From positions 1-39,661 of the IMG/VR virus record IMGVR_UViG_3300025669_000089: DNA of 39,661 nt; one strand, given 5' to 3'. A program made the position numbers and the translations under genes. Origin of the DNA: a virus. Below, piece by piece: positions 1,823 through 39,661 of this stretch (positions within the stretch are counted from its first letter, which is position 1; each line of letters opens with the position of its first letter). The notes beneath the pieces are model-generated. The model worked only from the letters and a program-made list of their open reading frames with translations, made no database searches and was not told the DNA's origin.

Positions 1823-4800
1823 TTATGGCAGCCGCCTGCGTATACGCTGATAGATGCGTTTTCGCTGGGGATCGTTTGTGGTTTTCTCCAGTGCTTCATA
1901 ATCAGTTTGAAGTTGCGTCGCCACCTTATTGAATCGGGTCCGCATAGCTCTTTCCTTGGGCGTGATCTTCTTGGAGGCGAACTTTCTATTGAGCGTGTCC
2001 CTGGCCTTGTAGAACTTGGTGAGCTGGTCTCTGGGTGAATTGGGTTCTCGCATGAACAGTGTACCGAACACAGGTATATCGCTGTAATTCCGTGACCCCT
2101 GCTGTGAGCCGGAAATCATCCCCCAACCCCTGGCGAACCTACGGAACAAACCGCCCGAGTAACTATCAATCAGATACTCAGTGCGGGATGGTGACATATT
2201 CAGGGCCCTGCCGATTGCTTTCATAGTATCCGTGGTGTACCTGCCGTACTGATCCTCGTCAAGCAAGTGCATTGTGCCAGGCGGAACGATAGGCCGGCCT
2301 GCCCAGTCCTTATTCCGCATAACGTCTACCACAGGCCCAGCCAGTGCCATGCCCGTAATGATATTGCGAGAGCCGAACGGATTGGACTGGTCGAGCATTT
2401 CAACCAGATCATCCGGCAAGGATGTCGGATCTTTCCGGTATGCCGCATCGACTGCGGCAACAGGCAGAGAGGCAAAGACGTGGCCCACCTGGAACGGCAC
2501 CGGCAGGCGCACAACCGTATCAGTTCCGGGCGCTCTAAAGTGCATGTAGTTTACCCGCTCGAAGTCTGCCATGTTCTTCCACCAGTCCTCATCACGATAG
2601 GCATACCACAGGCCGAGTGCTGGGATGGTCAAAGTCCCTATGGCCATAGCCGCCGCACGTCCCCGCGTCTTGGGATCTGCAAAGGTACGGAATATTTTCT
2701 GTGGGCCCTGGATATTGGCATTGTAGAACGGGAATACCTGATTCAACACCTTGGCAATTTTGCCGTGCCGCGTAAAGTTCGTTGTGACATCCTGGGCAGC
2801 ATTGAGCGCAAACAAAGAAGCATTAAGTGTCCCCTTACCGAACTTCTCCTCACCGACCTTTAGGGCTGCCTCGAACTCTGCGATCCTCACGCCAGACTCG
2901 GTCACACTGAATAGTTCCCGAGCCGCCTGTATTGGGTGTGCTACGGTCTTGATGACGTACTTACCCATTTTTGTACGGTCCAGCAACATCTCGGCACGCA
3001 GGTTCTTGGCTGCTACACGGTCGTGCATGAGCTGGCCGGACATTTCGCCACCAAGAGCTTTGAAGTGTCGCGCCGCTTCAGTCCCCCGGATATCTGAAAC
3101 AACACCCCTGGCTGCTGAGATCGCGCCACCTTTTGCGTGTTCTGCCGTCACCCCAAAGGTCGAAGCATCTCGCACAAAGTTACGAATCAGGCCAAAGCCG
3201 GGATTCAATCCTGTTGCTCCCAGTCGTCGTAATCGTGTAGCGCCACCAACTGTAGCGTTTAGCCATGGAGGCAATGAGTATTGATCTAAAGCCATAACGG
3301 TCTGGAATACGTCCTTATCGAGCTGAATGAATTCGCGTTTGCCCTCGGCATTGATAATGGGAATGATATTGTCCTTACCCCAGTACTGGGCAGCGTTGGA
3401 GTAAACCGTCAACATTTCATCCCATCTTTCTTTGAGTGCTTCAGGATCTACGTCAGGTAGGTCGCCCAGGTCGATCCCAAGCTTATCTTCGATGATTTTA
3501 AGAACGTCGCCTTTGATCTGTTCTACGGAGAAATTGGTCGCCGTCCGGGGCGTGGGTACTTTTTCGCCAAACTGATGCCCGCCAGGCTGATTGACTACCT
3601 TGGCTATCGCCTGGGCAACCATTGTCTTATGCGCGATCGAGATAAGCCTTTCGGCCTGCGTTAACATGGCCTCTATTGGTTCCATGAACTCTCGGCCACT
3701 GCCAGACAAGACATTGATCGGCTTGGAGTGCGTGCGGAATCCCTTTCCGGATCCGCTTGCGATTTTGACTTCACCCCAATCAAAGATCCGTAAGAACGGA
3801 ATATAAACCGGGTTTAGCGTCCTAATGGTCTTGATTGTATCCTCGCTTATGGCGCCTGCTTCACCCATGTAATCCAACACGCGGCCATTCCATGAAGTTA
3901 CCTCGTCAAGCACGTCATCGTAAATCTTGGCGGTTTCATCGCTGGTATCTTTGATCACAAACTCGGCATCAGCCTTGGATATGCCAGGGTTCTTGCCCCG
4001 CCTTATCAGATCGAGAGCTCGCGTGGCCACAGCGTACTGCACCCATTCTGTGATGTGGTCAATGGGCTTGAATATCTCGGTCAGGCCGGGCCCGGTAGTG
4101 TAGCCAGATAGGTTCGTCGTGCTGTGTAGAATGAACTTCCGTGCCACTGCAGGCGCCTTATCAGCATATGCAACGGCCAAGGTGTACGGGTTACGCTCCG
4201 GGGGCAGATCAAACAGGCCAGCCGTAATGAGTCGCCGTTTTAGGGGCGCCAGTTCGTCGATAAAGTTTACCTCAGTCCACAGGCTTGCCCGCTCCATGCG
4301 TTCGCCTAGCGTTCCCCTGAATGGCTTGCGGTTGATCATGGAAGATATCCGGCCCCTCGCGCCCTGGTGCCTCCATGTGCTGATCATCTGTCGCAACTTG
4401 TTCAGATTGCGGTTTGTGTCTGGGTGTTTGGGCAGGAACACATCCTTGAACCATTTGTCCATGTTGGGTGCAATGCTCGCAGTGTCGCCACCTGTTAGGT
4501 ATTCCCGCATGTACTCGGCCCAACCCTCAGACTTGTAGCCGCCCACGGGCTTGCGGTTGCCGTACAGGGCAACGCCCATATCGAACAGTTCCTTGCCGAT
4601 CTCGGTGCTGGCTGGGTGCTTGCTGATCCTATCCCCATCGATGTGGTCTATGTGGTGCCCTACCTCATGCGTGGCTGTGGTGATGGAACGGACATCCTGC
4701 AACCGGATACTTTTGCCAAACGGATGATACCAGCCAAGTGCATGGGCCATCCTGAACGTTGCCTTGCCGCGGATAGGTATCTGGAATGCACGCTGGGCAA

Positions 4801-7594
4801 ATGCGATGATATCACGCGATGGGACGGGCTTGACGGGGCCGCCGGCGTCCATGGCCACCTTGATCCGGCCACGGTCGATTTCGTTCTGTGATACCACTGT
4901 CGAGGGTGAGGACTCATCGCCCAGGTAGGCCGGGCTTTTCTCTCGGGGCCATCTGGCATCGGCCTCTATATCGCTCTGGAAGTCTGCTTGGGGCTCAGTA
5001 CCAGCCCATGCGTAAACAGGCGTCTTGTCCTGCATGAAGTTTTTGTCAACGATCTTGGCGTTTACCATGCGGCCCAGAACCTCGGCGTTCTCCTTGCTTG
5101 CTTCCTTGCTGCCTGTCCACTGCTCGGCCGTCATCCACGTTCGGGCCGGGAGTTTGTTGCCCAGGATGAATAATGGGCTTCTTGACGCAACGTCGTCTGT
5201 CCTCAACAGGTCTGCATTGACCAGCATCTGTGCCAACTGTTGGGGAAAGGGCTTACTGCCTGCCGATACACGCACGGGCGTTTTCTGTGCAACGTTGGGT
5301 GTCAGTACGGTACTGACTGCATTCACGGGCATGGTTACGGTTTGCGTCTGGCCCTTGGGGCTCCGGGTCAATATGGGCCGTAGTTCATCGCCTTCTGGCA
5401 GGAACATCTTGATCTTTGTTTCGCCCCTCGATGCGTGCAGCTCCAGGGCATCTTTGAGGAAATTCGAGTTGACGGCAACTACCTGCTCTGCCCCGTCCTT
5501 CACGCCGATCTGCGCTGCGATCCCCGCCTCATGGCCTGCACTGGCAAAGCCTATGGTTCCGTCAGGGTTCTTCATGATGGCGATTGTGGGTATTTCGCCC
5601 TTACCGCTCGGCGCGGCTACTGCTGCCTGTCTGACCTGCTGCCAGGTCTTGCGAGTGTTCAACTCGATTCCATCGGCTGCCTTGACCTCGGGAATGATTG
5701 CCTTGTAGTCTGGGAAGTTGCCCCGCGTTTCGTCCTTTGCGAGTGTCCGTTGCTTCAGCTCACCCTTCTTGAACGCCGCCGGTTCGTCGTAGAGTCCGTC
5801 CGGGCCCCAATCGCCTTTGAGGATGTACGCACGCTGTCCGTCCGTGACGACAAGGTCCTTACCCTTGACCAGGGCCCCGTCAACTGCATACCTGGAGGCC
5901 TTTTTAGCCTTGCCCTTACCGAGCCTACTGAACAGGTTCTTGGCTGGTGCAGGATATGACGGGGTAGCGATTGCGGGGGGCTTTCCGGGCTTGGTCTTGG
6001 CCAATGGCTTTAGCTTGGCCATTTCGGATGCGACCTTAGCCATCGCCTTCTCATTGCCTGGCAGTGCAAACAGTTGAGCGTCTGGTATGCCGGTGGGGAA
6101 CTCAACTGCCACAGTATGGTAGGCTTCGTCCACCTTGTCCGCATCTTTGAATGGCTTTGTTGTTAGTTTCGTACTTGGGTCATTCGCCCACGCCTGGTAA
6201 TCCGTTATGATTTCGTTGGCTTGTTCTCGGGAAAGAGCTGTAACTGTTTCCCCCGGTTGTTGCGTATCAATTGGCTGAGGCGTAATCGGGGCCGGGGCCG
6301 TCGGACTGACGGGCGGCGGGGTGATTTGCGTGGCATCTGGTGTCCCCTTTAGTTGTAGTTGCTGCTCTTGCGGTTGCAATTGCTGGATGATTGCCGCACT
6401 CTTCTGGTTAGCTGGAACTCCGGCAGCCTTGGCCCTGGCCTGGATCTGCTTTCGGGAGAGCTTTGTCAGGTCAGTCGTCGGCTGTTTCGGTGGTTGCTGC
6501 GCCAGCGGGATCGGCGCGGGAGGCGTACCCGGTTGCCTGGTGGCCAGGGGGTGCTTTCCGAAGTCCTTTAATGGCGGTTGCTTCACCTTTTTGGGAGTAA
6601 CCCGCTTTGGATCCAAACCTTGATATTTCACCCGGACGGCATCCCATCTGGTACGATCCCCTGTCTTTTTCCAGTGTTTTATTGCTGCATCGATCTCGGC
6701 CCGGGCACTCTGCCGCGTTACCTGCGCGTGGGTCTTGGCCGTTTTAGCGGCGCGCAGGCCCCGAACGAACCGGCCCAGTTTCTCCACTCCGAGCTCGCCG
6801 GCGCCGAACATGACACCAATCCCGAACTCGAAGCTGATACCCCCGTAATCCACGGGCTCGTTGTTTATGACCTTGTCCGAGAATTCCTCACCAGCCTTGC
6901 GTGTGGCAAAGGTCAGGCCACTGCCCGCCATCACCTTGAGTGCCCGCTTGCCCGCGATCCGCTTGATCACTGGGGCCGCTATCTTGCCCGCTGTACTGAT
7001 CCCGGTCATGAAATTAGCGATATCTCCGGCTGCAATATCCTGCTTTTTGGGCTTGAACCCCGTCATATGGTCAACAATGCCCGCCAAACTGTCGATCTTG
7101 CCGCCACTGACCCGCTTGGCTGCAGCATCGGCCACACCCAGAGTAAGCCCGGAGACGGCCTCTGTGCCCGTATGAAGGATACCCTTGCCGATGGTCCTAA
7201 ATGGAGTCTCTTCCGCCCCCAGCGGTCGCGTAGGAGCCGGAACAGGACGTGGGCGGCCTGGTGCACCGAAGAGTGCCGTACCAATATCTGCCGGCGGTGG
7301 AGGGGCCTGCTGGATCGTCTCCTGGCCTCGGGGGGCTAGGGGGTCAACAGTGACCGCTGATCCGGTGTCAGTAACGGGGATGTCCTGGCCAGCTACGCGG
7401 ATGGTAGGTGTGCCAGGTCTGGGCATGAGGGCTGCCGTGGCGTTCTTGAGTACATCGGGGTCAATACCGGCGCCTGCTAACTCTACCGGGGCATCCAGGG
7501 AATACCTGCTGGCCTGGGGAGTTGAAGGGCCGGCGTCAATGGAATATTTACTGGCAGGCTGCTCGGCGTCCAGTGAGTACTTGCTGATAGCCAT
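1823..7594 (-). CDS. Giant polyvalent virion protein with SAP-like, clamp-like, zincin-like and LPD38-like segments
   Basis: 1,923 residues; GAGGT precedes the ATG at 7594. Residues 1-40 carry three (S)KYSLDA-type repeats, with a fourth relative (SRYAVDG) near 570. Residues about 140-250 are Gly/Ala-rich and amphipathic. A SAP-like helix pair (about 371-400) is followed by a Pro/Gln linker. Residues about 575-758 resemble bacterial DnaN: VTDGQR, FPDY at 627-630, and a final MPVN. HEVGH at 976-980 with GWAE at 1024-1027 is a zincin-type metal site. Residues about 1600-1760 resemble LPD38, with a hydrophobic stretch and WW pair. Such polyvalent proteins are typically packaged and injected. Its place at the end of the late operon fits an ejection protein. 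Domain names are by eye; the overall class is confident and the clamp call is moderate. Confidence 0.8.
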   Translation of the reverse strand: MAISKYSLDAEQPASKYSIDAGPSTPQASRYSLDAPVELAGAGIDPDVLKNATAALMPRPGTPTIRVAGQDIPVTDTGSAVTVDPLAPRGQETIQQAPPPPADIGTALFGAPGRPRPVPAPTRPLGAEETPFRTIGKGILHTGTEAVSGLTLGVADAAAKRVSGGKIDSLAGIVDHMTGFKPKKQDIAAGDIANFMTGISTAGKIAAPVIKRIAGKRALKVMAGSGLTFATRKAGEEFSDKVINNEPVDYGGISFEFGIGVMFGAGELGVEKLGRFVRGLRAAKTAKTHAQVTRQSARAEIDAAIKHWKKTGDRTRWDAVRVKYQGLDPKRVTPKKVKQPPLKDFGKHPLATRQPGTPPAPIPLAQQPPKQPTTDLTKLSRKQIQARAKAAGVPANQKSAAIIQQLQPQEQQLQLKGTPDATQITPPPVSPTAPAPITPQPIDTQQPGETVTALSREQANEIITDYQAWANDPSTKLTTKPFKDADKVDEAYHTVAVEFPTGIPDAQLFALPGNEKAMAKVASEMAKLKPLAKTKPGKPPAIATPSYPAPAKNLFSRLGKGKAKKASRYAVDGALVKGKDLVVTDGQRAYILKGDWGPDGLYDEPAAFKKGELKQRTLAKDETRGNFPDYKAIIPEVKAADGIELNTRKTWQQVRQAAVAAPSGKGEIPTIAIMKNPDGTIGFASAGHEAGIAAQIGVKDGAEQVVAVNSNFLKDALELHASRGETKIKMFLPEGDELRPILTRSPKGQTQTVTMPVNAVSTVLTPNVAQKTPVRVSAGSKPFPQQLAQMLVNADLLRTDDVASRSPLFILGNKLPARTWMTAEQWTGSKEASKENAEVLGRMVNAKIVDKNFMQDKTPVYAWAGTEPQADFQSDIEADARWPREKSPAYLGDESSPSTVVSQNEIDRGRIKVAMDAGGPVKPVPSRDIIAFAQRAFQIPIRGKATFRMAHALGWYHPFGKSIRLQDVRSITTATHEVGHHIDHIDGDRISKHPASTEIGKELFDMGVALYGNRKPVGGYKSEGWAEYMREYLTGGDTASIAPNMDKWFKDVFLPKHPDTNRNLNKLRQMISTWRHQGARGRISSMINRKPFRGTLGERMERASLWTEVNFIDELAPLKRRLITAGLFDLPPERNPYTLAVAYADKAPAVARKFILHSTTNLSGYTTGPGLTEIFKPIDHITEWVQYAVATRALDLIRRGKNPGISKADAEFVIKDTSDETAKIYDDVLDEVTSWNGRVLDYMGEAGAISEDTIKTIRTLNPVYIPFLRIFDWGEVKIASGSGKGFRTHSKPINVLSGSGREFMEPIEAMLTQAERLISIAHKTMVAQAIAKVVNQPGGHQFGEKVPTPRTATNFSVEQIKGDVLKIIEDKLGIDLGDLPDVDPEALKERWDEMLTVYSNAAQYWGKDNIIPIINAEGKREFIQLDKDVFQTVMALDQYSLPPWLNATVGGATRLRRLGATGLNPGFGLIRNFVRDASTFGVTAEHAKGGAISAARGVVSDIRGTEAARHFKALGGEMSGQLMHDRVAAKNLRAEMLLDRTKMGKYVIKTVAHPIQAARELFSVTESGVRIAEFEAALKVGEEKFGKGTLNASLFALNAAQDVTTNFTRHGKIAKVLNQVFPFYNANIQGPQKIFRTFADPKTRGRAAAMAIGTLTIPALGLWYAYRDEDWWKNMADFERVNYMHFRAPGTDTVVRLPVPFQVGHVFASLPVAAVDAAYRKDPTSLPDDLVEMLDQSNPFGSRNIITGMALAGPVVDVMRNKDWAGRPIVPPGTMHLLDEDQYGRYTTDTMKAIGRALNMSPSRTEYLIDSYSGGLFRRFARGWGMISGSQQGSRNYSDIPVFGTLFMREPNSPRDQLTKFYKARDTLNRKFASKKITPKERAMRTRFNKVATQLQTDYEALEKTTNDPQRKRIYQRIRRRLP

Positions 7595-34590: not shown

Positions 34591-34722
34591 ATGAAGACTT
34601 GTCAACAATGCGAAAAATCATTTGACCCAAGAAACGAACGTCCATCACATCCGGCCAAGTATTGCTCTCGAACATGCTCGCACATGGCCCAGACAACCCG
34701 TGTGAAATTAACCTGTTCACAA
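34591..34722 (+). pseudogene. N-terminal fragment of an HNH-type endonuclease gene
   Basis: Forty-four codons from the ATG read MKTCQQCEKSFDPRNERPSH followed by PAKYCSRTC. This is the CxxC...YCSxxC zinc-ribbon start seen on phage HNH endonucleases. It has its own promoter and Shine-Dalgarno. Past about 34722 the frame merely continues antisense through the 3' end of the primase gene (whose stop is at 34717) and loses HNH features. The HNH catalytic part is missing, so this is a remnant of an inserted homing-type gene. A functional short zinc peptide cannot be excluded. Confidence 0.6.
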
Positions 34723-36621
34723 TATCGCCCCTACCTCTTTCCAACGAAGCTCACTCTTGATCCAGTTGAACCCGATCCCCAGACGCGCACCAGGGCCGTT
34801 AGAAACCTTCAAAACATGCCACACAGCATTAAGCTCGGCAGTATCAGACATCAAACAACCGCTAAACTGCACCCTAAACTCTTTAACCTTCTTCAACTGC
34901 TCAATCCAGATCACGCACTGCGAAAACTTGCCATACGCACGGCCACCAGCAATATCATCAATGTCAACGGCACCCCGAGCCACCTTACCCCGAGGATGTG
35001 ACACGAACAGAATAGAGCAGTTGTACTTCGAGGCAATACGCTTGACACCCATCACCAAGTCACGGTCCAATTCAAACACCTTGCCCCCCTTTGTGTCCAA
35101 AGCCGTTACAGGATCGACACAGATCACACGGCGACCAGAACGAGCTTGAGCCCCTATCCACGCCAAAAGATCACTATGCGTCATGTCAGACTGCTCGTAC
35201 CCGATCACCATGCGACGCCCGATACCCTCCAAAATTGAAGCATCCTCAACAGCAAACGAACGGGCCAAAGCATTGTTCTCAGCGTCCTCCAACCACCGAG
35301 GATTGAACAAATTAGAGTCCCGACGGATCATGGCTGACAATCGAGACAAATGCCAGTACCGCTCGTGCTCCAGCCATAAACACACATAATCTACACCAAG
35401 TTCCTCCCAGTGCATCATACACTGCAACAACGCAAAAGACTTGCCCTCACCAGGCTTGGCACCAATGATCGTCAACGTACCAGGACACAACGGCAAGCAC
35501 GTTTCATTCAAAGAACTAAACGGAACGTCAATAGCACGCATCGAACCAGAAATAATACGGTCCAAATAGCCCAATCGAACCGCTAAATCGCCCAACCGTA
35601 TGGCCTCAGACTTCACCTTAGCCAACAACATCGGCCAAGACCGGGGGTCACTATCTCCCAAATAATCGCCAACGTCCCACTTCGGACCCGATGCACCCGC
35701 AACAACAGGATCTACACGAAACAAAGTGCAACCCAATCCCTCCAAATGACGACCCACAGCGTCCATGTGCGATGAACCAACGTCATCATTGTCCGGCCAT
35801 AAATATACCACCTTCCCAGACAACAAAGACCAGTCCGTCTTCCGCCCTTGCCAACTGTATTCGCCCGATTCAGATAAAACACCAGCGCCACCAGCAGATG
35901 TAGTACCACATAAACCGGCAGCTATCAGTAAATTCGCACACTTCTCGCCCTCAACTACCCATACCTCGTCACTACCTCGAACGACTGACTCATTGTATAC
36001 AGGAAATGGACCCGAAGGTGCACCCAAACACCAACCTCCAATAACTTCGCCGTTGGTGCCCTTAAGCTCACCAAACTTGCACTGTAAATAACGCTTGCCA
36101 ATCTTGCCTGAAGAATCGTCACAACGAATTATCCCCAAATATGGAGCATTCCCCCTATTATAGATGTAGAAACTTCGGAAATTTTTAATTCTACGCTTTA
36201 GCTGGGCCAAGGGTATGTATGATGGGGTAGTCGGCCCGGTGGCTGGACGCACCCCCCCGCCCCCGCCCCCCCCCTCTCTGGTCCGCGCGATCGTGTCGCC
36301 GCTGTCCGGGCCGGCAGGTGTAGCTGCGACCGAGCCTGGCTGGCCGGCACTACGGTACAGCTCCTGCACGGTGCAGCCCCTGGCCCGAGCAAGTAGGTCC
36401 ACCACATCACCCGACACGCCGCACTTGGCTCGGAAGCAGTAGGACCGCCAATGCCCAGTGCCCGACGCCTGGATCCACGCCGAGCGGTCATGGTCCGGGC
36501 AGTACGGGCAGTCAAACCCGTCACCAGCCCAGCGCAGGTCCTTATCCGTGGCATCATTGAGGACACGCACCAAAGCCGAGCGGTCCGTGGTTGATGGTAA
36601 TGTATCGGATGTCACGGCCAT
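34717..36621 (-). CDS. Bifunctional primase-helicase
   Basis: 634 residues from the ATG at 36621, which overlaps the previous stop and has GAGGGTGT upstream; the frame is open to 36684. Domains in order: zinc finger near 38-75 (CPYCPDHDRS...YCFRAKCG), a Gly-rich linker (EGGGGGGGV, about 116-124), a TOPRIM-like primase (VWVVEGEKCANLL near 219, YLWPDNDDVG near 269), and a RecA/DnaB-like helicase with Walker A GAKPGEGKS near 385 and Walker B VICVDPVTAL near 497. It primes and unwinds DNA at the replication fork, like T7 gp4. Base composition and codon use change sharply at the Gly-rich linker; see the findings. Confidence 0.85.
   Translation of the reverse strand: MAVTSDTLPSTTDRSALVRVLNDATDKDLRWAGDGFDCPYCPDHDRSAWIQASGTGHWRSYCFRAKCGVSGDVVDLLARARGCTVQELYRSAGQPGSVAATPAGPDSGDTIARTREGGGGGGGVRPATGPTTPSYIPLAQLKRRIKNFRSFYIYNRGNAPYLGIIRCDDSSGKIGKRYLQCKFGELKGTNGEVIGGWCLGAPSGPFPVYNESVVRGSDEVWVVEGEKCANLLIAAGLCGTTSAGGAGVLSESGEYSWQGRKTDWSLLSGKVVYLWPDNDDVGSSHMDAVGRHLEGLGCTLFRVDPVVAGASGPKWDVGDYLGDSDPRSWPMLLAKVKSEAIRLGDLAVRLGYLDRIISGSMRAIDVPFSSLNETCLPLCPGTLTIIGAKPGEGKSFALLQCMMHWEELGVDYVCLWLEHERYWHLSRLSAMIRRDSNLFNPRWLEDAENNALARSFAVEDASILEGIGRRMVIGYEQSDMTHSDLLAWIGAQARSGRRVICVDPVTALDTKGGKVFELDRDLVMGVKRIASKYNCSILFVSHPRGKVARGAVDIDDIAGGRAYGKFSQCVIWIEQLKKVKEFRVQFSGCLMSDTAELNAVWHVLKVSNGPGARLGIGFNWIKSELRWKEVGAIL
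36232..36261 (+). repeat. 30-bp repeat, copy B (inside the primase-helicase gene)
   Basis: It begins CGGCCCGGTGGCTGGACGCA and ends C7GCC on the plus strand. All 30 bases match copy A at 19334-19363, which reads on the minus strand. It overlaps the homopolymer-rich linker of the primase gene, on the antisense strand. Flanking sequence differs from copy A. Confidence 0.9.
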
Positions 36622-37559
36622 ACACCCTCGACAGCAGCCTCGGCCAGCAGTGCGAGCACATCGACGGCCGGGTAGGCCTTGCATCGAGCTGCCCAGTCCA
36701 CGTCTTCGTCGTGGTAGTCAGGATCCACGTCCTTGCCGGGCAGCAGGCCCCACAGTTTCAGAGCCGCCAGCATCCGCTTGCACTCTCTGGGCGTGAAGTA
36801 CTGGAGGTGTGTACGCAGGAAGCGGGCGATGATTGGATGAACGTCCTTCACGGTGATCGGGTCATCTGGCGGGAACCGGCGGTAGGCTATCAGGTCGACC
36901 ATTATGTCAGACGCAGTGTACTCTGACGACTCGCTTGGTCGTTCACATCCAGGTAGGTGGCTCGTATCCCCCCAATCGTCTGAATCATGGGTTTTCTGGT
37001 CTCTGTCTCCTTCTTTATTCTCTTTCTCCCTCTCTAATCTCGATTCACCCGGAGAATCCTTGTTTTCCTGGTTCCCCGAGTTCTTCCCCTTTTGTGTATT
37101 CTTCCTATCGTATGATAAGTTAGGTTGCTTTGGGTGTAGAGGCCACTTTGGGGTCGACACTTTGCCGTATGCCTTGCACACGAAGTGTTGGCAGTACCTG
37201 AGCATGACCAAGGGGTTATTATTGATATCAACGGCGTGTTCTGTGGGCACATACCGCTCGATCATGCCAGCCTCTTCGAGTTCATCGTTCAGTCTTTGCA
37301 CGTCCCCAGGCTCTACTTTAGTGTGTGCGGCCGGGTTGATTCTGATGTAGAGCTGTAGGTATATCTCCGTGCAATCAGCCGTGTAGTTGCCCCACTTATC
37401 CAGTAGTGTCAGGAGCCGGAAGTAGTGGGCTTGGGCCAGTGGTGATACTCCCGCCAGTGCGTGCGACAGCAGGATCGGCCGGTGCAGTGGCACGAAGTCC
37501 GCCGTGTATTGGGGCATGTATCTCTGGTCCTGGTTGGGTTGTGGCTCTATCGTTGGCAT
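36612..37559 (-). CDS. Replisome-organiser/DnaD-like protein
   Basis: 315 residues from the ATG at 37559, chosen because AGGAG lies 7 nt upstream and the extra codons to 37733 lie within the preceding gene. DFVPLHRPILLSHALAGVSP and then LAQAHYFRLLTLLDKWGNYT, with a following helix-turn-helix (TEIYLQLYIRIN), resemble the wHTH region of phage replisome organisers. A Lys/Asn-rich linker (about 150-205) leads to a C-terminal helical part (about 225-310; VHPIIARFLRTHLQYFTPRE) like DnaD-type initiators that load the helicase. It lies directly upstream of the primase-helicase gene, whose start overlaps its stop. Confidence 0.65.
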   Translation of the reverse strand: MPTIEPQPNQDQRYMPQYTADFVPLHRPILLSHALAGVSPLAQAHYFRLLTLLDKWGNYTADCTEIYLQLYIRINPAAHTKVEPGDVQRLNDELEEAGMIERYVPTEHAVDINNNPLVMLRYCQHFVCKAYGKVSTPKWPLHPKQPNLSYDRKNTQKGKNSGNQENKDSPGESRLEREKENKEGDRDQKTHDSDDWGDTSHLPGCERPSESSEYTASDIMVDLIAYRRFPPDDPITVKDVHPIIARFLRTHLQYFTPRECKRMLAALKLWGLLPGKDVDPDYHDEDVDWAARCKAYPAVDVLALLAEAAVEGVWP

Positions 37560-38842: not shown

Positions 38843-39304
38843 ATGATGCTTGAAGTGCCGAAAACCAAAGTGGGTACGGCCGAGTCGGCAGCCGATGTAT
38901 TCCTATCGCTGTTGAGGGCCGCCGACGAAGTTGAGCAGGACAAGGAACATGTTTGGGCCATGGGCCTGGACAATGCGCACCGTATCAAGTACGTCGAGCT
39001 GGGTGATCAGGATGAGATTGTCGCTCTATTTGAGCTGGCGCGTGCTTTGCCTCATATGATCCATTTCGGATATACCGCTCGGCAGGATCTGCGCTACGCC
39101 GGGCGCCCCGCTAATTTGCGGATTAACGGATCCGGGTGGGCGCGCGGCAAGATGAACGAATACTGCGTTGTGCAGAAACCGACGGGCACCAATCCGGTTT
39201 GCCCTGGAAATTGCCGCACATGTGATCTGTGCAAGATCGAGCGCGGCATTGTAATCGAATCTGTTTTGCGTCGGCCAGGCCGGCAGAAAGTGAGGTCGTC
39301 TTGA
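38843..39304 (+). CDS. RadC-like N-terminus joined to a Cys-rich phage domain
   Basis: 153 residues; TATTGAAAGGGACTGATT precedes the ATG. Residues about 14-50 (AADVFLSLLRAADEVEQDKE then HVWAMGLDNAHRIKYVELG) resemble the start of RadC/JAB proteins, but the catalytic HxH and Ser/Asp part is absent. Residues about 70-145 carry FGYTARQDLRY, NLRINGSGWARGKMNEYC and VCPGNCRTCDLCK, a zinc-like phage module. It may be a truncated fusion or simply a phage family with a RadC-like N-half. Function unknown. Confidence 0.5.
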   Translation: MMLEVPKTKVGTAESAADVFLSLLRAADEVEQDKEHVWAMGLDNAHRIKYVELGDQDEIVALFELARALPHMIHFGYTARQDLRYAGRPANLRINGSGWARGKMNEYCVVQKPTGTNPVCPGNCRTCDLCKIERGIVIESVLRRPGRQKVRSS

Positions 39305-39661
39305 ACATCAACGGCGAAGAAATTACATTGGATCAGGTGGATAAGATGAAGGTTAATAAAAGACAATGGCGGATTACGCCATTGGGAAACTGGGTCACGC
39401 TCGGAAACGGGGTCAAGCTCGGAAACGGGGTCACGCTCGGAAACGAGGTCACGCTCGGAGACAGGGTCACGCTCGGAAACGAGGTCAAGCTCGGAAACGG
39501 GGTCAAGCTCGGAAACGGGGTCACGCTCGGAGACTGGGTCAAGCTCGGAGACGGGGTCACGCTCGGAGACGGGGTCACGCTCGGAGACGGGGTCAAGCTC
39601 GGAGACAGGGTCACGCTCGGAAACGAGGTCAAGCTCGGAGACGGGGTCACGCTCGGAGACT
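39301..39661 (+). CDS. Left-handed beta-helix (hexapeptide repeat) protein, cut by the window edge
   Basis: The frame starts at TTG 39301 (GAGG 5 nt upstream; overlaps the previous stop as TTGA) and is open to the right edge. An ATG at 39346 with AGGTGG is an alternative. The N-terminus reads LNINGEEITLDQVDKMKVNK. From 39385 the sequence is [L]-G-(N/D)-x-V-(T/K)-L repeats, for example LGNGVKLGNGVTLGNEV, which form left-handed parallel beta-helices in acyltransferases and viral spikes. At least 15 repeats are present. It may be a surface or receptor-binding rod, or a decoy. No catalytic His is seen in the visible part. Confidence 0.75.
   Translation, partial: MNINGEEITLDQVDKMKVNKRQWRITPLGNWVTLGNGVKLGNGVTLGNEVTLGDRVTLGNEVKLGNGVKLGNGVTLGDWVKLGDGVTLGDGVTLGDGVKLGDRVTLGNEVKLGDGVTLGD
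39385..39661 (+). repeat. 18-nt tandem array (15 full units plus a partial)
   Basis: Each unit is GGA-(A/G)AC-NNG-GTC-A(C/A)G-CTC and encodes one beta-helix coil step. Fifteen full copies end at 39654. Codon 2 is AAC or GAC, codon 3 is TGG, GGG, GAG or AGG, and codon 5 is ACG or AAG. GGA, GTC and CTC never change. The array continues beyond the window. Confidence 0.9.

Follow-up and report, generated by a model that had tools for sequence, protein, structure and literature searches.

Phage hexapeptide-repeat solenoid genes with mixed residues at predicted outward positions on a uniform repeat core: an array at the end of a viral contig and its relatives

Hexapeptide-repeat proteins of the Hexapep family (PF00132), among them LpxA, LpxD and GlmU, share a six-residue period and an aliphatic core. 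Both features are found in the phage protein described here, whose translation scores 74.3 bits against the family model (gathering cut-off 27). The protein is encoded at one end of the window, by which we mean the whole 39,661-base virus contig that was analysed. Unlike left-handed enzymes of the LpxA/LpxD/GlmU type, it has no visible catalytic residues or loops, and unlike bacterial Hexapep members its units are nearly identical in DNA; bacterial arrays also lack the contrast between outward and third codon positions that marks the phage arrays. YdcK-like phage proteins (PF18836, phrog_7964/5070) resemble complete relatives of the window protein in having a lead, an array of 18-nt units and a small C-terminal domain with a GC motif, and they share the same variation within the array and the same early location. 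This larger cousin group belongs with YdcK of E. coli and Salmonella (PF18836, structures 2f9c/2pig). Its unit is G-[D/N]-A-[W/R/Q]-V-[Y/S] and, unlike this group, the window protein has no match to the YdcK models (NF040481/PF18836). It does match PHROG 5353 through the repeat (9.3e-17), and it and its relatives are covered by PHROG 5353 and 2154 (9e-17 and 2e-6). Both are families without assigned function, relative to which the array evolution only is new.

Two further systems invite comparison. Bactofilins (PF04519) gave the best superposition of the predicted window model, but the window protein has no sequence match to PF04519, and bactofilins are not known for such shuffled arrays. Diversity-generating retroelements likewise leave a scaffold constant and vary only its surface positions, but no reverse transcriptase or template was seen in the record, which may be a fragment, and change in the phage arrays proceeds by recombination of units. 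A literature search of incomplete coverage returned no description of this array pattern. The window array exemplifies, on a small scale, a pattern that is general among phage solenoid proteins, and it is the relatives that supply the evidence.

The array in the window and its predicted fold

Since the end of the record falls within the array, the gene is incomplete, the visible unit count is a lower bound and the unit order is that assembled at the tip of a metagenome contig (Table 1). Translation probably starts at a TTG overlapping the stop codon of the preceding ORF (TTGA), to which the array gene is probably translationally coupled. The upstream ORF had no family match and no relative was found for it; a search through this ORF for close relatives of the window phage also returned none, and no close relative of the window array was found against which turnover could be compared. 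The W-R motif of the lead matches the GWRxLP in the leads of relatives. The array gene comes last in a series of small plus-strand ORFs beside a primase/helicase gene, a proximity that places it on the early, or replication, side of the genome; genes for terminase, portal and head are found at other places, on the minus strand. Also on the minus strand, positions 1823-7594 hold a 1,923-residue ORF that probably encodes a multi-domain internal virion protein.

Table 1. Features at and near the array gene, in window coordinates.
Feature	Position	Strand	Basis
Primase/helicase gene, about 2.6 kb from the array gene	34717..36684	-	phrog_239, 4.1e-29
Upstream ORF, 153 aa, Cys-rich stretch	38843..39304	+	ORF list
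Gene for hexapeptide solenoid protein, 3' end cut by contig end (probable start)	39301..39661	+	open frame 39229-39660; translation from 39301
N-terminal lead MNINGEEITLDQVDKMKVNKRQWRITPL	39301..39384	+	translation; comparison with relatives
15 tandem 18-nt units, G-[N/D]-[G/E/W/R]-V-[T/K]-L	39385..39654	+	Tandem Repeats Finder, unit parsing, Pfam match
Start of 16th unit (GGA GAC T), cut by record end	39655..39661	+	unit parsing

Tandem Repeats Finder placed the array at 39385-39657 (period 18, 15.2 copies, 0% indels), and direct parsing gave 15 full units followed by GGAGACT, in agreement with an earlier note on this DNA that had read 15 units directly at 39385-39661. That note had found variation only at codons 2, 3 and 5, none of it synonymous, and for the window array this holds. 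Only four nucleotide sites vary among the 15 units: codon 2 base 1 (A8/G7), codon 3 base 1 (G11/T2/A2), codon 3 base 2 (G12/A3) and codon 5 base 2 (C9/A6). The nine distinct DNA units encode nine distinct peptides, so that there are no synonymous differences. The recurring combination NGK-NGT, reported at units 2-3 and 7-8, was recovered by parsing, together with DRT-NEK at units 5-6 and 13-14. What the array does not bear is the inference of selection that had been drawn from it. Its four segregating sites call for at least five mutations, about 29% of the possible mutations in a unit are synonymous, and the probability of no synonymous change among five minimal mutations is about 0.17. Since five non-synonymous mutations would arise by chance in about 17% of cases, the lack of synonymous differences in this array alone is not significant and is weak evidence. 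Many pairs of units owe their difference solely to the copying of a few variants.

Structure prediction supports a hexapeptide solenoid. The AlphaFold2 input, the window protein with 15 relatives, was a shallow alignment from which the model may be wrong; pLDDT was 86 overall and 94-97 across most of the array, where the model has one strand per six residues and a predicted 18-residue coil. In VIA-align the model compared best with triangular beta-helices. Left-handed hexapeptide proteins reached Z scores of 10-12.5 but at an rmsd of about 11-12 Å, against Z 11.0 and 1.9 Å over 85 residues for the right-handed bactofilin 6ria. The distance pattern of the model suits both hands and the superposition suits the right-handed one, so that the coil may be of either hand. 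Of the left-handed beta-helix that had been proposed, the solenoid stands on the Hexapep score and the model, and its hand may be left or right. Foldseek against the PDB gave no significant match for the window model or for the full-length model of one relative (L008), which was poor (pLDDT 68). Sites called outward or exposed here were assigned from the repeat pattern.

Mixed sites predicted to face outward, and nearly uniform third positions, among relatives

Scans of IMG/VR recovered dozens of phage relatives of the window protein with 6 to 41 units. Complete relatives have a short lead, often ...EIYAIxPDxDGWRxLPNG, and C-terminal domains with the motif IGVGC..H...YW, GGCH..SFAEA or DQQC..GLHV; no Pfam family covers these C-termini. 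At four loci (L002, L011, L039 and L121), the same repeat is followed by a distinct C-terminal domain, FTKW/FWKWVT...DQQC..GLHV...KIRVRKLKVL, in place of the one with the GC motif that is usual there; it had no Pfam match in L002 and L011. For the cousin group, 371 loci matched and 80 were kept; two of these cousins (L023 and L024) match PF18836 and score below the cut-off of NF040481. YdcK-like genes are present in cultured phages of Streptococcus, Ruminococcus, Curvibacter, Vibrio, Xanthomonas and Edwardsiella. Among one-per-species bacterial genomes, the matches look mostly like ordinary hexapeptide proteins (at most 51% identity), and E. coli prophage populations, searched for a larger test set, gave no matches.

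Two sets of arrays were compared, 44 phage arrays of the window's type and 78 YdcK-like arrays. In the window-type arrays, mean heterozygosity at the four outward sites was 0.465, 0.538, 0.427 and 0.491 (mean 0.48), and third positions ranged from 0.05 to 0.24 (mean 0.136); the outward mean exceeded the third-position mean in every one of the 44. The YdcK-like arrays gave 0.467 at outward sites versus 0.070 at third positions, with the outward value higher in 77 of 78. No such contrast was seen in a control of 63 bacterial hexapeptide arrays (0.668 versus 0.658, outward higher in only 34). The variation that the earlier note had assigned to outward side chains is thus concentrated there in relatives too, exposure being read from the repeat pattern. 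Third positions are free over the long term, since the dominant third base differs between phages. Among segregating alleles at outward codons, synonymous ones numbered 69 versus 103.4 expected in the window's type (p 3.5e-5) and 54 versus 116.1 expected in the YdcK-like set (p 6e-13), tests that take third positions as a fair measure of neutral change and treat aligned units as comparable even after shuffling; core codons showed no deficit of synonymous alleles. Synonymous differences are not absent from the family. They occur in 28 of the 44 window-type arrays (none in the other 16), and in one relative's array they account for up to 31% of codon differences, so that the zero recorded for the window array becomes scarcity in the family. 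Frequent synonymous differences, which would count against the reading of the earlier note, are thus partly present in some relatives.

The outward alphabets are D/N, W/R/Q and Y/S in the YdcK-like set and N/D, G/W/E/R/D and T/K in the window's type, rich in residues typical of binding surfaces. The order of units is approximately random: at lags 1-10, the recurrence of variants and of whole units is similar to that in shuffled arrays, and association between sites is weak (r2 mostly 0.07-0.2 versus about 0.06). The two bases of YdcK codon 4 reach an r2 of 0.30, and the combination TAG there is a stop. Some arrays hold long repeated blocks of up to 16 units. Charge balancing was rejected, as the net charge of arrays is only slightly negative with an ordinary spread. 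Duplication or face patterning with period 3, coil by coil, was also rejected, there being no lag-3 signal except a weak one in one type. Across phages, GxxVxL arrays use mostly A[C/A]G at codon 5 and mostly CTC at codon 6, with more variation at the third bases of codons 1 and 4.

All three tblastn matches of the window protein examined in cultured phages lie out of frame inside YdcK-like genes, because GGTRACGCTYGG encodes G[D/N]A[R/W] in one frame but VTLG when read in the next. In three cousins (L023:5775-6593, L024:5778-6743 and L025:5844-6530) GGTRACGCTYGG gives a second hexapeptide-like repeat, VTLGxx, in the +1 frame. An origin of one repeat from the other by a switch of frame was rejected: third bases vary freely over 82 YdcK-like arrays, which makes the overlap a coincidence of codon use. 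In phage Sfi19, the annotated orf129 overlaps orf229.

Array change between close relatives

Comparison of unit order and copy number among related phages revealed differences in several pairs. L003 and L008, whose flanks are 97.7% identical over 3.85 kb, share their first nine units exactly, after which L008 lacks a block (at least 28 units in L003 versus 13 in L008) that does not look like a multiple of three units. Between L164 and L175 (>99% identical), exactly three units are lost and the rest of the gene is unchanged. At about 98-99.7% identity, the Vibrio phages 1.139.A/B and 1.034.O/X have arrays of unequal length and content, and stops inside the 1.139.B array split its gene. Arrays of 18 units are found in each of the S. 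thermophilus phages Sfi19, SFi18 and CHPC919. Sfi19 and SFi18 differ in four units, every one of which has an exact copy elsewhere in the Sfi19 array; of the six units in which Sfi19 and CHPC919 differ, five have such a copy there. Such replacements are what gene conversion between units would give.

When the close pairs were pooled, codon differences inside the arrays were 78 non-synonymous to 10 synonymous, versus 26 to 33 in the remainder of these genes (Fisher p 8e-9, indicative only, as some independence between pairs is lost and units that have been shuffled are not orthologues in the strict sense). Turnover is not universal. Some close pairs (L024/L157) are stable, the array of Curvibacter phage P26059A is unchanged against a metagenome relative (one non-synonymous and one synonymous difference), and the shorter, degenerate arrays of Xanthomonas phages CP1/MK21 have no non-synonymous excess. 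Change of length and pattern, proposed as rapid in the earlier note, is therefore seen in close relatives, through unit loss, duplication and copying, and does not extend to some pairs.

Competing explanations and their reach

We incline, at somewhat better than even confidence, towards a cytosolic solenoid scaffold with a binding surface that is under selection and shuffled by recombination. The protein would be a non-catalytic, probably cytosolic early phage protein, laid out as a short N-terminal lead and a hexapeptide beta-solenoid (three hexapeptides per 18-residue coil; core G, V and L), to which complete relatives add one of several small C-terminal domains. Relatives show core DNA that stays uniform within an array and is exchanged wholesale in the course of time, three outward positions that draw almost at random on a small mixed alphabet (N/D; G/W/R/D/E; T/K/R), and units that are deleted, duplicated and overwritten by copies of sibling units. 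Selection may favour a mixed and shifting surface if its binding partner is itself variable; the likeliest partner would be a host factor, e.g. a defence component or regulator. A binding scaffold for such a partner is our best inference; PADLOC gave no match for defence-system membership.

Ordinary repeat drift is a rival account, in which an array recently expanded from few units, the G/V/L core was under purifying selection, the outward residues were unconstrained and copying spread a few mutations, so that selection for diversity would be unneeded. The copying of units is demonstrated, the window array needs only its five minimal mutations, and the allele-level excess at outward codons is moderate in the window's type. 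However, copying that evens third positions should even outward sites as well, and codon 2 base 1 is polymorphic in 44/44 window-type arrays and codon 5 base 2 in 42/44. Phages with different core codons share the same small outward alphabet, and the outward residues are not simply free, since codon 2 base 2 and codon 5 base 1, in the same codons, vary far less. We consider drift rather unlikely. A targeted mutator such as a diversity-generating retroelement would explain why variation is confined to fixed sites, but we give it hardly any credence: the record has no RVT_1 match (it may be a fragment), the sites alternate between two or few bases and not from A to N, the first nine units of L003 and L008 are identical despite diverged flanks, and changed units are mostly copies of existing ones.

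The surface rod of the earlier note, read as a surface or tail protein under receptor-driven selection, is, in our opinion, improbable. Solenoids do occur in tail proteins, and YdcK-like relatives weakly match tail fibre and baseplate PHROGs, matches driven by the repeat. Yet the window gene lies outside the structural module, among small ORFs near the primase/helicase gene, and no signal or membrane stretch was seen in its lead. Most annotated relatives likewise belong to regions of regulation or replication: their neighbours are antirepressor, cox, Gam and Rad52 genes in one setting, methyltransferase, SSB and helicase loader genes in a second, and cro-like repressor and helicase genes in a third. 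In Curvibacter phage P26059A, the gene preceding the array gene is annotated as a cell-wall hydrolase. An early role inside the cell is a better fit than a rod of the tail. Some phage records annotate cousins as hexapeptide acyltransferases, and there is similarity to LpxD/LpxA-type profiles, but the best NCBIfam score (49.7) is far below the 207-bit cut-off. Hexapeptide acyltransferases use a catalytic histidine; the visible array is composed of G, N, D, W, E, R, V, T, K and L alone and lacks a loop, and there is no histidine in the 120 visible residues, the C-terminus lying beyond the record end. The low scores and the missing histidine make an enzyme role unlikely, and we rate this annotation as very improbable for the window protein.

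Two large, nearly unstudied phage protein families obey one simple rule: uniform core DNA, mixed surface residues, near-random order, and change by copying of units within the gene. Should selection for a changing surface be confirmed, these early proteins would be good candidate inhibitors or decoys in phage-host conflict. More speculatively, and with considerable doubt, phages of many hosts may carry an early-gene library of combinatorial binders, in which a fixed solenoid core displays a tiny outward alphabet, nearly independent in each unit and re-dealt by unit-scale gene conversion and by gain and loss, to bind fast-changing host defence or competitor proteins. This would be protein diversification without a dedicated mutator. 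Such arrays interrupt metagenome assemblies and carry mistaken labels as CRISPR spacers or acyltransferases, and are therefore probably under-sampled.

Several smaller observations concern the arrays in deposited and assembled sequences. Records of the Vibrio phages 1.139.A/B, 1.034.O/X and 1.209.O (L237-L241) label the array as CRISPR spacers; these features, ncRNA inside a gene, are false calls on a coding repeat. A frameshift or stops split the array into two ORFs in L010 (4857-5468 / 5414-5965) and in L238 (1.139.B), which could be real decay or sequencing error. On three virus contigs, one kind of array is found at both ends or close to them (L032/L037 on 3300022851_000057, L041/L033 on 3300044800_000094 and L040/L143 on 3300048819_000142), a layout that would result if the assembler had opened a circular genome at the repeat; an array likewise closes the window contig, whose 5' end, though, is not array. 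Finally, the 8.9-kb contig 3300049927_000148 (L004) carries three window-type solenoid genes, at 2-472, 426-1067 and 3182-3961, two of them adjacent and each with its own array, a case of gene duplication.
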